Assembly: GCA_017403125.1 (NCBI GenBank)
Contig: JAFQOR010000020.1
Coordinates: 111,022-175,021 of the forward strand
Length of the DNA stretch: 64,000 bases
Origin: Alistipes sp.
GTDB taxonomy: Bacteria > Bacteroidota > Bacteroidia > Bacteroidales > Rikenellaceae
Direction of reading: 5' to 3'
This document shows, piece after piece, positions 29,260 to 63,669 of the stretch (position 1 is the first letter of the stretch; each line of letters opens with the position of its first letter). The notes beneath the pieces were generated by a model. That model was given only the letters and a program-made list of their open reading frames with translations. It was not told the origin of the DNA and did not search any database. The position numbers were made by a program, and so were the translations under genes.

Positions 29260-29334
29260 GGGAGCATAGCTCAGCTGGTTCAGAGCATCTGCCTTACAAG
29301 CAGAGGGTCAGGGGTTCGAATCCCTTTGCTCCCA
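29260..29334 (+). tRNA. tRNA-Val (anticodon TAC)
   Basis: A 75-nt cloverleaf: acceptor GGGAGCA/TGCTCCC, D arm GCTC/GAGC, anticodon arm TCTGC-CTTACAA-GCAGA, T arm AGGGG-TTCGAAT-CCCTT, discriminator A. The sequence from its T loop through the following terminator is repeated 336 bp downstream. Confidence 0.96.
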
Positions 29335-29724
29335 CAACGTCAAAACGACTTACAGCAATGTAGGTCGTTTTTTTGTTTATGTGGTTGTGTTGTAAGGTGT
29401 GTATGAGTGATGAGCCGGCAACGATGTTGCCGATGTATGCGTGATGCGCCAATGATGAGCGAGCTCCTCATGTCTCATCCCGCCTCCCATGGCTGCGCCA
29501 CTCATCACACACTCTTCACGACTACGCAGTGTTGAGGTATCAAAGGCATTACTCACGTAATATGGGGTTGAGCCGATAGGGTAATAGTTTATAGCTCGGC
29601 TATTCAGCCTACGCCTATTTTTGCAAGGTATCGGCTCTTCGACTTCGTCGTTCGAATCCCTTTGCTCCCACAACGTCAAAACGACTTACAGCAATGTAGG
29701 TCGTTTTTTTTTGTTTATGTGGTG
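29335..29724 (+). repeat. tRNA-Val-linked element ending in a copy of the tRNA 3' end
   Basis: The segment 29314-29386 (T loop, acceptor 3' strand, terminator, first downstream bases) recurs almost exactly at 29650-29724. The sequence between holds the inverted repeat GAGCCGATA (29570-29578) and TATCGGCTC (29629-29637). Its last 90 bp resemble the element after tRNA-Asp: CTCACGTA, GGGGTTGAGCCGATA, CTCGG, TACGCC, a T run, then GGTATCGGCTC directly before the TTCGA of the tRNA copy. No open frame that looks real. It behaves like a small unit that carries its own copy of the tRNA end. Confidence 0.75.
29344..29378 (+). terminator. Terminator after tRNA-Val
   Basis: AACGACTTACA and TGTAGGTCGTT pair around a GCAA-type loop and run into seven T residues. 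A second copy with nine T residues lies at about 29680-29710. Confidence 0.88.
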
Positions 29725-29725
29725 T

Positions 29726-29834
29726 TTTGAGGCAGAGCGTCGATTTCATCGCCCTCGCCAATTGAGGATGTTGCATGTGTGCAAGCACCCCGCACTACCC
29801 TCAATTGACGTTGTTGCACAAGCTCTGCCTCAAA
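29726..29834. repeat. Nested inverted repeats, MITE-like or structured RNA
   Basis: TTTGAGGCAGAGC (29726-29738) is perfectly complementary to 29822-29834. Inside, CAATTGAGG (29759-29767) pairs with CCTCAATTG (29799-29807), and a small TTGCA/TGCAA hairpin is at the centre. The 109-bp unit could be a terminal-inverted-repeat element or fold as an RNA. No clear target duplication flanks it. Confidence 0.65.
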
Positions 29835-29851: not shown

Positions 29852-29961
29852 TGGGGTGAAAAGGGTAGTAAAATGGTGGTAAAAGGGTGGCGGAAGGGTA
29901 GCAAGCGGGCGATAAACGGGCGGCAAGCGGGCGATAAGCGGGTAGTGAAAGGGTGGCGACA
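29852..29961. repeat. Ten 11-bp tandem repeats downstream of lptD
   Basis: Units of the form GGG[CT]RRYRAAM (for example GGGCGATAAAC, GGGCGGCAAGC, GGGCGATAAGC, GGGTAGTGAAA) follow each other without gaps at 11-bp spacing. They lie 59 bp beyond the lptD stop. One strand is purine-rich with regularly spaced G triplets. Confidence 0.8.
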
Positions 29962-53608: not shown

Positions 53609-55822
53609 ATGGATCTATTTATTGTTATTACTCTTGCCCTGTTGGCAGTTATTGGTATTGTGGTCGGCGTGTCGAACGATGCTGTGAATTTCCTTAATTC
53701 GGCGTTCGGCTCTAAGGCATCGTCAAAGCGTGTGATACTCACCATTGCAAGTTTGGGCGTTATGGTGGGCGTTATGACATCGAGCGGTATGATGGATGTG
53801 GCACGTAGTGGCGTCTTCTATCCCGATATGTTCTCGTACAACGAGATTATGATACTCTTCCTCGGTATGATGCTCTCGAATATCATTCTGCTCGACATCT
53901 ACAACTCGCTGGGTCTGCCCACATCTACCACCGTCTCATTGGTCTTCGGCTTGCTTGGCTCGGCGATGGCTTTGGCGCTCTACAACATCTGGGGAGGCAC
54001 TACCGATGCGTCGCTTGGCGACTTTATCAACTCGGGCAACGCCCTGGCTATCGTGTCGGGTATCTTGGTGTCGGTGGCACTCGCCTTCTTCACAGGACAC
54101 CTTCTGATGTACCTCTCGCGACTGATATTCTCGTTCCGCTATCAAAAGCTATTCAACCGCTTTGGAGCGTTGTGGTGCGGCGTTACCTTGGCGGGCATCA
54201 TCTACTTCACGGTGTTTAAGGGCTTGAAGAGTACGACGCTTATTCCCGACGTAGTCAAGGAGTATGTGAACGACAATACGGGCATTGCCCTGTTGGCATT
54301 GTGGGCATTCAGCTCGCTGCTGTTGTGGGTGTTGCAGCGTTGCAAGGTGAATATCTTGCGAGTATCTATCCTCGCTGGAACATTCTCGTTGGCGTTGGCA
54401 TTTGCGGGTAACGACCTTGTGAACTTTATCGGTGTGCCTTATGCTGGTTACGACTCGTATATGTATGCGCATAGTGCCGATGCCGACCTTACATCTATGT
54501 CGGCGCTTTCGAATCCGACGCAGGCAAACTTCTGGATTATGTGTGCTGCGGGCTTGATAATGGTCTTCACGCTCTTCTCCTCGAAGAAGGCGATGCGCGT
54601 TATCGAGACCGAGCGTAAGCTCTCGTCGCAGTCGGAGACAACGGATACCAATGCCGATGCAACGAACGTATCACGTGGCATCGTGCGTGGCGTACGTCGC
54701 TTCAATGATGGCTTGGCAGCTATCACCCCCGAGTCGGTAAAGCGCTTTATCAGCCGCCGCTTCGAGCCTCTGCCCGAGGAGGAGCGTGGCGACGTAAACT
54801 ACGACCTTATACGTGCTACGGTAAACCTTACCGCCGCAGCCATACTTATCTCTATCGGTACGCAGCTCAAACTGCCCCTCTCGACAACCTACGTCGTGTT
54901 TATGGTGTCGATGGGTTCGTCGCTTGCCGACCGTGCGTGGGGTAGAGAGAGCGCTGTGTATCGTATCACGGGCGTTATGACCGTCATCACGGGGTGGTTT
55001 GTTACGGCGTTGGGTGGCTTTATCATCGCCCTTGGTGTAACCCTTGCGTTGGTATATGGTGGCAAGGTAGTTATTGTGGGTATAACGCTTCTCTGCGGTT
55101 ATCTCATCATCAAGAGTAATCTCAAAAAGGATAAGGGCGAAGATGCGGAGGAGGACTCTGCAACTGCCGACCTCGGCAAAAACTTGAAGATGAGCCCCGA
55201 AACAGCGCTTATGGACTATACCGAGCATGTATGCTCGTCGATGGAGAAGGTAACGATGATTTACGACCGCACCATTGTCGCAGTATTCAAAGAGAATCGT
55301 AAGGTACTCAAAGATATGGTCCGTGAGGCGGAGGAGTTCTTCCAATCGACACGTCAGCAGAAGTATGAGCTGATACCCTTGTTGCGCACCTTGGAGGAGA
55401 GCGACATCAATACGGGACACTACTACGTGCAGGTGGTCGATTATATCTCGGAGACGAGCAAGGCGCTCTTGCATATCACGCGCCCCTGCTTCAAGCATAT
55501 CGACAATAACCACACGGGTCTGTCGAAGGAGCAGGTTTACGACTTGAAGCGCATCAATGACCACGTAGAGGAGATATTCTCGGATATTAACAATATGCTC
55601 CGCACCCGCTCGTTCGAGCAGATGGAGAGTGTACTCAACAAGCGCGACGAGATGTTCGACCTTATCGACGAGGTGATGCAAAATCAGCTACGTCGTCTGC
55701 GCGATACGGGAGGCTCATCGTCGGCGAATATGCTATTCTTCAACATATTGACCGAGACGAAGACAATGGTGCTTCATTCGCGAAATATTATGAAGTCGCT
55801 TGAACACTTTGTTGATAGATAG
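53609..55822 (+). CDS. Pit-type inorganic phosphate transporter with C-terminal PhoU-like domain
   Basis: A 737-residue ion-coupled phosphate permease. The two inverted Pit signatures are GVSNDAVNFLNSAFGSKA (about 21-38) and FAGNDLVNFIGVPYAG (near 266). About ten membrane helices span residues 1-510 with a cytosolic loop near 330-400. After about 525 a helical soluble domain resembles PhoU. The start is the ATG at 53609; a TTG two codons earlier is less likely. Divergence from a PhoRB-like pair and the repeat array upstream suggest phosphate control. The stop is followed by the second 89-bp hairpin element. Confidence 0.92.
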   Translation: MDLFIVITLALLAVIGIVVGVSNDAVNFLNSAFGSKASSKRVILTIASLGVMVGVMTSSGMMDVARSGVFYPDMFSYNEIMILFLGMMLSNIILLDIYNSLGLPTSTTVSLVFGLLGSAMALALYNIWGGTTDASLGDFINSGNALAIVSGILVSVALAFFTGHLLMYLSRLIFSFRYQKLFNRFGALWCGVTLAGIIYFTVFKGLKSTTLIPDVVKEYVNDNTGIALLALWAFSSLLLWVLQRCKVNILRVSILAGTFSLALAFAGNDLVNFIGVPYAGYDSYMYAHSADADLTSMSALSNPTQANFWIMCAAGLIMVFTLFSSKKAMRVIETERKLSSQSETTDTNADATNVSRGIVRGVRRFNDGLAAITPESVKRFISRRFEPLPEEERGDVNYDLIRATVNLTAAAILISIGTQLKLPLSTTYVVFMVSMGSSLADRAWGRESAVYRITGVMTVITGWFVTALGGFIIALGVTLALVYGGKVVIVGITLLCGYLIIKSNLKKDKGEDAEEDSATADLGKNLKMSPETALMDYTEHVCSSMEKVTMIYDRTIVAVFKENRKVLKDMVREAEEFFQSTRQQKYELIPLLRTLEESDINTGHYYVQVVDYISETSKALLHITRPCFKHIDNNHTGLSKEQVYDLKRINDHVEEIFSDINNMLRTRSFEQMESVLNKRDEMFDLIDEVMQNQLRRLRDTGGSSSANMLFFNILTETKTMVLHSRNIMKSLEHFVDR

Positions 55823-55844
55823 CCGCTTGTCGTGATAGTGGCGC

Positions 55845-55933
55845 ATCTGCGGCACATCCCCAAAAGTAAAGCACCACGGGCTGTACGTTTTAGTACTATC
55901 CCGTGGTGCTTTCTTTTGCGATGCACCACATCT
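55845..55933. repeat. 89-bp hairpin element, copy 2
   Basis: Direct-orientation copy of 48305-48393 with one difference (C at 55861 for A at 48321). It has the same AAAGCACCACGGG/CCCGTGGTGCTTT stem. GCTTGTCGTGATAG-type sequence, which follows the first copy at about 48413, here precedes the hairpin at about 55824. It also provides a terminator for pit. Confidence 0.85.
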
Positions 55934-55974
55934 GCACCACTCTGACGACAAGCTGCCACGCGCAGCCTCGCACG

Positions 55975-56296
55975 ACTGAGAACGACTGAGAATGACTGAG
56001 AACGCCTGGGAATGGCTGAGAACGCCTGTGTTTTTCAGGGATTACGAGACTTTAAGACCACGGGACTACGAGACCACGGGACTTCGGGACTACGAGACTA
56101 CGGGATATTGCGGGCGATGCCTGCGTTTTTTTTGAAGTTTTGTGGTTTTGTGGTCTTGTGGCGCGCTACCCAGTCATTCTCAGGTATTCCCAGGCGTTCT
56201 CAGGTATTCCCAGCTAATTGCGCGCCTTCTCAGGTATTCCCAGTCAATCGCGCGCCTCTCGGACCCCTCGGACCCCTCGGACCTCTCAGACCCCTC
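55975..56296. repeat. Composite short-unit repeat block
   Basis: In order: five 10-bp units ACTGAGAACG type (55975-56024); eight 8-bp units NNCGRGAC (56043-56106), the inverse complement of the array at 48628-48819; three exact copies of TTCTCAGGTATTCCCAG (56177, 56197, 56227), which are the 10-bp unit inverted; and four 9-bp units CTCGGACCC type (56258-56293). The inverted 10-bp arrays flank the 8-bp array, so the block can fold on itself. No gene is present. Confidence 0.85.
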
Positions 56297-57010
56297 TTAC
56301 TCGTTCTCCAAGCAGGCGCAGATGTTACGACACTGCGCAGATATTTGCTCTGCCGTGCGTGAAAGGGTGGCATCATCCACCGTGATATTGTGTGCCGCAG
56401 CATAGCGTATCAGGTCGCGGCGTATGCCCTCGTCCATAAGTGCGATATACTCGGCATTTACCTTCTCGACGTGTGCCGCATAGCTCACGGCATCCAACTG
56501 CTCATACTCTCTTACCGTGAGGCAATGCTCCGTGGTGCTTGCAAACCACTCCTCGGCAACAGCCACAAAGCGAGAGTCTATCTTCTCGACGGTGGGCTGT
56601 ATTGCGCCCTCCTCCTTCGTGTCGTTATCGCCGCGTAGGAGTACTACGGCGGTGATGACGACCACGACAACAGCGATGCACGTAAGTATTATGACGCCCC
56701 AATGGCGCGGACGTGCTATGATGTCGCTATCGTCGGCAGGGGTGATGTCGTCGGCGGTGCAGAAGTCGCTCCAACTGCCGTAGCCCACATACTTGGCGAG
56801 GGCAGAGAGGGTGGTGGGGCGTGGCGCATCCTTGCCGAGGCGGGGCAGGTACAGCAGCTCCAAGGCGGCAGCGCTAATCTTGGGGCGCTCCACCGCTTCG
56901 TTGATAGCCTCCATAAGTGCGCGGCAGCCCTCGACATCCGTTATCGGCTGTCCGAACTTCGCTGCGACCATCTCTTTAAGGCGCTCTATGTACTGCTCCT
57001 GTGTTGTCAT
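56297..57010 (-). CDS. Hypothetical membrane protein with cytoplasmic N-terminal module
   Basis: A 237-residue protein, not assigned to a named family. Residues 1-95 are soluble and include PRPTTLSALAKYVGYGSWSDFC, a segment shared by many Bacteroidota proteins with HTH-like or membrane-linked modules (recalled, not searched). One strong helix lies at about 103-125. The C-terminal 110 residues are helical, probably periplasmic, with two cysteines near the end (CRNICACLENE). Its stop lies directly at the edge of the composite repeat block. It may be a sensor-type or stress-related protein, but nothing proves it. Confidence 0.65.
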   Translation of the reverse strand: MTTQEQYIERLKEMVAAKFGQPITDVEGCRALMEAINEAVERPKISAAALELLYLPRLGKDAPRPTTLSALAKYVGYGSWSDFCTADDITPADDSDIIARPRHWGVIILTCIAVVVVVITAVVLLRGDNDTKEEGAIQPTVEKIDSRFVAVAEEWFASTTEHCLTVREYEQLDAVSYAAHVEKVNAEYIALMDEGIRRDLIRYAAAHNITVDDATLSRTAEQISAQCRNICACLENE

Positions 57011-63294: not shown

Positions 63295-63371
63295 GGTGCG
63301 TTAGTTCAGCTGGTTAGAATACGTGCCTGTCACGCACGGGGTCAGGGGTTCGAGTCCCCTACGCACCGCCA
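63295..63371 (+). tRNA. tRNA-Asp (anticodon GTC), CCA encoded
   Basis: A 77-nt cloverleaf: acceptor GGTGCGT/ACGCACC, D arm GTTC/GAAT, anticodon arm CGTGC-CTGTCAC-GCACG, T arm AGGGG-TTCGAGT-CCCCT, discriminator G followed by CCA. The last 21 nt before CA recur exactly 300 bp downstream. Confidence 0.96.
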
Positions 63372-63405: not shown

Positions 63406-63669
63406 TGTTGTGCGGTACGTTGATAAATCAACTAAGCATTGCGCGTTATCGGCATTGTGAGCAAGCTCCCAATAGTCGATACCACGCACTGCTTCGCTAT
63501 GCGACTGCACCGCCCAACACGATGCCTATCTACTGACGTTTGGTAGGGCACTCTCACGTAGGAGGGGTTGAGCCGATATGATAGAGATTTATTGCTCGGG
63601 CTACGCCCTGCGCTTTTTTTTAGTGGTATCGGCTCTATGGCTTCGCCATTCGAGTCCCCTACGCACCGC
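63405..63669 (+). repeat. tRNA-Asp-linked element ending in a copy of the tRNA 3' end
   Basis: TTCGAGTCCCCTACGCACCG and the next C (63349-63369) recur at 63649-63669. Between lie CTCACGTA, GGGGTTGAGCCGATA (GAGCCGATA 63570-63578), CTCGGGCTACGCC, a T run and TATCGGCTC (63627-63635). The last 90 bp have the same layout and much the same sequence as the tRNA-Val-linked element at 29335-29724. The first part (63405-63540) shares only short patches such as GAGC-AGCTCC. No credible gene lies within. Confidence 0.75.

Follow-up and report, generated by a model that had tools for sequence, protein, structure and literature searches.

What does it mean when a bacterial tRNA gene is followed, after a short stretch of DNA, by a second copy of its own 3' end? 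The window, i.e. the whole stretch of 64,000 nucleotides of an Alistipes sp. genome that was analysed here, holds such an arrangement behind tRNA-Val and a related one behind tRNA-Asp. The parts of both are listed in Table 1.

Table 1. Parts of the tRNA-Val array and of the tRNA-Asp unit, in window coordinates.
Feature	Position	Strand	Basis
tRNA-Val (tac), host gene heading the array	29260..29335	+	ARAGORN; Rfam tRNA 74 bits
Terminator-like hairpin of tRNA-Val, first copy, T run next	29342..29371	+	inverted repeat
Domain A, long stem enclosing a multi-hairpin junction, apical GAGCGAGCTC; identified by its structure in related units	29394..29516	+	DNA fold z -2.6
GGGGTT, repeating the 5' strand of the tRNA T stem and the start of the T loop	29564..29569	+	sequence
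Domain B main hairpin, stem GAGCCGATA/TATCGGCTC	29570..29637	+	covariance model, covariation
Small hairpin CGAC-TTC-GTCG	29640..29650	+	sequence; covarying helix 4
tRNA-Val 3' end, second copy, from T-loop C56	29653..29671	+	sequence repeat
Terminator-like hairpin, second copy	29678..29707	+	sequence repeat
Second domain A, array tail, without recognised domain B	29726..29834	+	DNA fold z -5.8
tRNA-Asp (gtc), host gene	63295..63371	+	ARAGORN
Domain A of the tRNA-Asp unit	63413..63545	+	DNA fold z -1.8, weak by itself
T-stem 5' copy GGGGTT and domain B hairpin GAGCCGATA/TATCGGCTC	63564..63635	+	covariance model
Small hairpin ATGGC-TTC-GCCAT	63637..63649	+	sequence
tRNA-Asp 3' end copy from T-loop C56	63651..63669	+	sequence

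Anatomy of the units in the window

An earlier note on this DNA had described the tail and terminator of tRNA-Val as duplicated, which was confirmed: positions 29314-29385 recur at 29650-29723 with 72 of 74 positions identical, at a spacing of 336 and with a 2-nt difference within the T run. The duplicated stretch comprises the T loop, the 3' strand of the T stem, the 3' strand of the acceptor stem and the terminator-like hairpin. The two copies are separated by 264 bp in which no integrase gene is found; in a mechanical list of open reading frames (at least 80 aa) the sole frame in the Val unit is one of 100 aa with a TTG start on the minus strand (29377-29679). The inverted repeat that had been reported between the copies is present as well (GAGCCGATA/TATCGGCTC, 29570-29578/29629-29637). 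Beyond what had been noted, a copy of the 5' strand of the T stem precedes this inverted repeat, a second, small hairpin follows it, and the linker is structured.

The related element that was said to lie behind tRNA-Asp, 34 kb away, is likewise there, and is identical to the Val unit at 82 of 110 positions (E 4e-11 within the window). It ends in CGAGTCCCCTACGCACCGC, i.e. the 3' end of tRNA-Asp itself, and both units end in at least 19 nt of the 3' end of their own tRNA. The covariance model matches the Val unit at 29563-29661 with 93.8 bits and the Asp unit at 63563-63659 with 106 bits, both units belonging to its training set. The order of parts is the 5' strand of the T stem, GTT, two hairpins, and the tRNA from C56 on. 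With the T-stem strand before the core and the tRNA resuming at C56 after the small hairpin, the unit thus resembles a T arm that has been split in its loop.

Behind the second Val copy the covariance model finds no further match (29726-29834), and the arms of the second domain A (29726-29738/29822-29834) are complementary at 13 of 13 positions. Further on, positions 29864-29958 hold degenerate short direct repeats such as GGTAGTAAAATGGTGGTA; GGGTAGC-type runs of this kind also stand behind tRNA-Asp (L240) and tRNA-Gln (L006) of the same genome.

A family of units behind tRNA genes

The genome from which the window comes (1.84 Mb in 31 contigs, 88% complete) carries seven units, and all seven are located behind tRNA genes. 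The BLASTN search of this genome that had been proposed as a check gave two further copies, one behind tRNA-Leu(tag) and one behind tRNA-Lys (E 2.4e-15 and 3.4e-10, respectively); the matches stand directly behind different tRNA genes and most of them finish with the 3' end of the tRNA in question. With the core as an exact pattern this genome gave four matches, and with the reversed pattern, used as a control, none. The recurrence of the unit is not a chance event.

The exact pattern was also found in 108 stretches (L038-L145) of the GTDB genome collection, all of them from MAGs named Alistipes sp. or Rikenellaceae bacterium, the Alistipes ones bearing ruminant gut sample names. From loci L016-L145 we drew 123 elements differing in core and flanks, some of which may be one locus split across two contigs of a MAG. 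A tRNA gene lies on the same strand within 1.5 kb upstream in 108 of the 123: Ser 24, Asp 23, Gln 11, His 10, Lys 9, Val 9, Thr 7, Pro 5, Leu 3, Glu 3, Met 3 and Arg 1. The remaining 15 comprise 12 elements less than 400 nt from the edge of the available stretch and three without a tRNA that close, namely one with tRNA-Leu 1.8 kb upstream and genes between, and two behind a prophage-like element in tRNA-Met.

Two covariance models were used to follow the family. R1, built from an alignment of 48 cores, gave 94 matches, spread over 25 of the 37 genomes of the same genus (own included), while 24 other genomes of the order had none; in 20 of 20 regions chosen from the 94 matches a tRNA lies 130-203 nt upstream. 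R2, built from 63 cores, was positive in 115 of the family's 268 genomes, which belong to 3 of its 22 genera, with 484 units in all, and across 393 genomes of the order only the window's own genome was positive; these absences are soft, since above 40 genomes a model search scores the best candidates only and filters more strictly. An exact-pattern scan of viral contigs gave no matches, nor did the window unit match any phage or plasmid in a distant blastn search. The literature searched gave no account of such units in Bacteroidota, which does not prove their absence from print.

A family of tRNA-linked, structured units is thus well supported. A unit is DNA without an apparent gene that follows a tRNA gene directly and has a copy of the 3' part of that tRNA at its end. 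We regard it as the probable explanation, held with some reserve, that these are tRNA-linked repeats that insert at the end of the tRNA gene and duplicate their target there, the work being done in trans by an enzyme that would recognise a T-arm-like fold.

Conserved structure and strand preference

The structure of the cores was assessed by covariation, using shuffles that ignore relatedness. In an unfitted MAFFT alignment of 48 cores the main stem is invariant; both partners are changed in 10 of 25 pairs, with 121 such cells against 38 after shuffling, and 96.7% of the cells are paired. In an alignment of 63 cores that was fitted to the model, and so leans to the model's structure, such two-sided changes are seen at 19 of 24 pairs (244 cells, compared to 78 when shuffled) and 96.2% are paired, compared with 35-48% when slid. 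R1 also picks up diverged main stems, i.e. GCGAGGATA/TATCCTCGC, GCGCGGATA/TATCCGCGC, GCGGGGATA/TATCCCCGC, GCGCGAATA/TATTCGCGC and GCGCAAACA/TGTTTGCGC.

A structure kept in this way might serve in RNA or in DNA, and the first alternative to insertion is a family of structured small RNAs that would be made by read-through of the terminator and cut like a tRNA 3' end. There is a precedent in E. coli, where the sections of the 2021 study cited here report three tRNA-linked repeats as small RNAs that are transcribed and processed; these three, rrA, rrB and rrF, are reported there to be transcribed by read-through of the first terminator and to bind Hfq and CsrA (PMC8144298). In the present family, 108 of the 111 units with enough sequence have a tRNA upstream on the same strand. 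Folding was tested on the 97 first units, the later units (11 of 108) being left out. Domain B folds with a mean z of -2.5, and the tRNA strand folds better in 92 of 97; its predicted folds contain 148 G-T pairs in 1273 on the tRNA strand and 3 in 1004 on the opposite one. According to these predictions, the strand preference of domain B would lean towards RNA or towards a single DNA strand.

Other observations speak against RNA. Only 9 G-T and 9 A-C cells are found among 1119 in the covarying helices 2-4; the acceptor and T stems of tRNAs (67 of 78 collected) have 65 G-U in 793 pairs (8.2%). Domain A folds strongly (mean z -7.5, 10 shuffles for each of the 97 units) and without preference for the tRNA strand, the lower fold being on plus in 34 units and on minus in 62 of the 97. 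The scarcity of G-T pairs in the covarying helices, together with the strand symmetry of domain A, leans towards DNA. Moreover, a terminator-like hairpin stands between tRNA and unit in the window, though read-through is possible, and an Rfam search of four loci returned tRNA only at gathering scores. A small RNA family is an alternative to be taken seriously, albeit an unlikely one.

Copied tRNA parts and unit boundaries

The exact match to the 3' end of the own tRNA has a mean length of 16.3 nt in the 108 units, compared to 6.3 nt for other tRNAs, and lies above the mean of the other tRNAs in 100 of them. The match is at least 18 nt long in 67 of the 108 units and shorter in 41, 13 of which match over less than 9 nt.

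The copy of the T-stem 5' strand before the core likewise agrees with the own tRNA. In the 108 units compared (15 of the 123, without a tRNA in view, being left out), 455 of 540 letters match the own tRNA; shuffling gave a mean of 363 and a maximum of 385. The last three letters match in 108 of 108 units and all five in 41. Under shuffling the last three letters match in a mean of 68 units and at most in 80; since nearly all tRNAs have GG here, part of the complete agreement is trivial. Position 50 of the copy differs from the tRNA in 21 units. A mismatch at 50-64 results in 13 of these, ten of them at tRNA-His; the other eight turn a G-U pair into a Watson-Crick pair (6) or the reverse (2). 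In other words, re-pairing of the T stem is not kept in every unit.

The gap between tRNA and core is 135-274 nt in the 97 first units. The end of the duplication could be placed in 85 of them, the sequence behind the core being too short in 5 and the copy not anchored in 7: it falls within 4 nt of the last base of the tRNA in 27, earlier in 11 and beyond it in 47.

Turnover of units and bodies common to several tRNAs

Two loci of related genomes, with 89% identity across 6.3 kb that run to the end of tRNA-Asp, differ by a whole unit: L096 has one extra unit compared with L069, of another subtype and flanked by tRNA tail, between tRNA-Asp and the old terminator. This difference may stem from a gain in L096 or from a loss in L069.

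Near-identical bodies are also found at different tRNAs. The units of tRNA-Leu(tag) (L054) and tRNA-Thr(cgt) (L084) have 89% identity over 214 nt. Behind this body the Thr unit runs into the complete tail of tRNA-Thr, and the Leu unit into a tail of only 11 nt that agrees with tRNA-Leu and differs from the Thr tail at its last letter, so that the complete Thr tail is the main evidence in this case. The units of Ser-gga and Ser-cga (L081, L111) are 96% identical over 230 nt, each with the tail of its own tRNA (one letter changed in L111), and one core is found with 85 of 86 positions identical at tRNA-Asp and tRNA-Val of MAG RGIG4198. Where whole bodies are shared, the T-stem 5' strand is the same (GGGGG in Leu/Thr as well as in Ser-gga/Ser-cga). 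Cores alone are 97-99% alike at tRNAs with unlike T stems (Asp/Gln, Met/His), and the core may thus move independently. Turnover at the level of units, and bodies common to several tRNAs, are fairly well supported; tandem duplication and gene conversion could be the source of part of the pattern.

We also observed cores nested inside the small hairpin of another core (L113, L125, L140), as if hairpin loops were targets, and head-to-tail repeats of the core (L024, L094, L122).

These data bear on a second alternative, namely that the units do not move and are tRNA tails duplicated in tandem, which homologous recombination keeps alike, the hairpins acting as spare terminators or as breaks on recombination. 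Duplications that run beyond the tRNA end in 47 of 85 units would suit this, as would the fact that the distance from tRNA to unit goes with the type of tRNA. The Leu and Thr bodies and the additional unit of another subtype in L096 argue against it, as do the 27 boundaries close to the tRNA end, and we consider it quite improbable. Insertion with target duplication would fit these three observations.

Further repeat kinds behind tRNA genes

A second family of units has a different core, GGCGAGC..GGGAAAGGCGTTAAGCG..GTAGCC, and copies the tRNA from A58 on. There are 19 distinct copies, sought in loci already collected, which had mostly been fetched for the first family; 16 have their tRNA in view, in all cases Ser or His, and 3 are too near an edge. 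In 15 of the 16 the tail starts with AATCCC and is that of the own tRNA; in L111 it is degenerate. In a consensus fold of 22 copies the 3' letters of the T stem are predicted to pair with an upstream GGGA. Units of this family occur in the window's genome at tRNA-His (L251), Ser-tga (L253) and Ser-cga (L258). A third kind of direct repeat was seen behind tRNA-Ala(ggc) (L242), with a copy of T arm, tail and terminator and the palindrome CTCCTTTATCAAAGGAG between.

Candidate enzymes and integrated elements

A search for tyrosine recombinases (PF00589) gave three matches in the window's genome, read as XerD-like, XerC-like and a CTn-like protein of 425 aa at a contig end, and two in G437 (98% complete, 11 units), whose size and score are those of XerC- and XerD-like proteins. 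A dedicated tyrosine recombinase is thus not evident. Counts in the genus range from 1 to 19 per genome and point to no one enzyme, and the PF00589 and Y1_Tnp searches together yielded no dedicated recombinase for the units. A XerC-like gene of 356 aa, with TQGAKVEQ-like repeats at its C terminus, was seen about 0.7 kb upstream of a unit-bearing tRNA-Leu(cag) (L197 1288-2358, minus strand; G000:C30 ~55570-56640).

No full element with domain A and domain B ends and an integrase between them was found in the loci examined. Behind tRNA-Leu in L113 (2404-4318, reverse complement) the DNA between units holds a GIY-YIG gene (PF01541, E 1.2e-5) and a frame of 81 aa; we do not claim them as cargo because the case is single and the borders look rearranged. 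In genome G061 a prophage-like element of about 44 kb is located in tRNA-Met (G061:C5 ~4.9-49.2 kb; ends in L299 and L300) before two units, and carries a 393-aa tyrosine recombinase as well as amidase-like and reverse-transcriptase-like proteins (named by eye, the two ends being read). Its attR is a plain T arm without hairpins, and a prophage origin of the units is accordingly disfavoured.

A third alternative, that the units are scars or minimal integrative elements, i.e. attR sites of tyrosine recombinase origin that outlasted the cargo, we hold to be most improbable: a tRNA 3' part at the end is the classic mark of an attR in the portion of the literature cited here (PMC9897764) and the G061 element with its recombinase does precede two units, but the attR of that very element lacks hairpins, the units have covarying structure and stand in tandem at many tRNAs, and the only PF00589 matches of G437 are Xer-like. 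The attR sites of prophages and ICEs integrated in tRNA genes do share with the units the second copy of the tRNA 3' part and the T arm as a target; unlike them, the units have no integrase between the copies, are cargo-free in nearly all loci seen, contain hairpins inside the T arm and form tandem arrays.

The earlier note had left the choice between a non-autonomous tRNA-targeting element and the scar of one. The first half of this reading is now the better supported, and a scar has become less likely because the covarying structure is kept across many loci, units occur in tandem, and they differ from the hairpin-free attR of G061. The note had also taken the tRNA 3' end as a signature of site-specific integration; the ending in a tRNA 3' part and the lack of an integrase stand, and recombination is retained as a candidate process only, no enzyme having been found.

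Comparison with known systems

The closest known kind, which the earlier note did not mention, is the tRNA-linked repeats of E. coli, such as rtT behind tyrV (RF00391). In the sections of the source cited here, they number 22 in ten loci, lie directly behind the tRNA with one to five per locus, and each end in 18-19 bp of the preceding tRNA or rRNA (PMC8144298). They were first described in 1978 and, by the same sections, had no known function before three rRNA-linked ones were studied in 2021 (PMC8144298). Neither those sections (PMC8144298) nor the other literature searched gave an account of how they spread. The units described here share these features, i.e. they stand behind a tRNA, end in its own 3' tail and occur singly as well as in tandem, with one to five per locus.

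At the one E. coli locus examined, K-12 tyrV, the period is 178 and the copied tail consists of 19 nt from A58 in the T loop, which is also where the copies of the second Alistipes-like family start. Its predicted fold shows a T stem restored by pairing of GGGGAAGGAT with ATCCTTCCCC, with an insert of several hairpins inside; the 200-nt stretch overall folds no better than shuffles (z -0.7). RF00391 has four matches in the E. coli locus and none in four Alistipes-like loci, the second-family model (R3) does not match the tyrV locus, and a distant blastn of the window unit found nothing in 20,395 E. coli records. Judged from these comparisons, the Alistipes-like units and the tyrV repeats appear to share the same design without detectable homology. 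Compared to the E. coli repeats, the Alistipes-like family occupies many more loci and species, has a covarying core and shares bodies across tRNA types.

Less close parallels exist in other systems. Integron cassettes end in attC sites with the core pair RYYYAAC/GTTRRRY, and resemble the units in being small, arranged in arrays and structured at the end; the additional unit adjoining a fixed site in L096 is a further integron-like feature, seen in one case. Unlike cassettes, nearly all units are without apparent genes and their target is a tRNA. GTTGAGC of the window fits GTTRRRY, while GTTGCGA, GTTGCGC and GTTGCGG of its relatives do not. In the integration of casposons and of CRISPR spacers a fixed target is duplicated and growth takes place next to it, which is like the behaviour proposed here; unlike casposons, the units have no terminal repeats that we could recognise. 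REP elements are palindromic and non-autonomous, as the units are, and the cited part of the literature describes them as thought to be moved in trans by TnpA-REP (PMC8266576). A REP/RAYT identity was rejected: the search for a Y1 transposase of the TnpA-REP type (Y1_Tnp) gave no match in any of the 37 same-genus genomes, own included.

A possible mode of spread

We propose that a unit inserts at the 3' end of a tRNA gene and duplicates 19-21 nt, which begin at position 56 in the T loop and end at or near the last base of the tRNA, so that the host tRNA would stay intact. Units would then multiply in tandem, which would account for longer duplications such as the 72-74 nt at tRNA-Val. Folded as a single strand, the unit could re-form a T stem from its own 5' half and the copied 3' half around the two hairpins, and an enzyme acting in trans may recognise this T-arm-like fold more than a fixed sequence.

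The proposal could be taken a step further, to a mobile DNA that targets by structure and base pairing: the unit would be a mock T arm, its 5' T-stem strand would help to choose fitting tRNAs, the enzyme would duplicate the target from position 56 to the end, and the E. coli repeats would be another branch. In this full form we find it improbable.

With hundreds of diverged copies, a covarying structure, a difference at the level of a whole unit and bodies shared between tRNAs, the mechanism of spreading is open to testing. For annotators there is a caution, in that a copy of a tRNA tail need not signal a lost prophage. The Alistipes-like family is a variant of the tRNA-linked repeats, one with a covarying core and with bodies that occur across tRNA types, and its units may move between tRNA genes.
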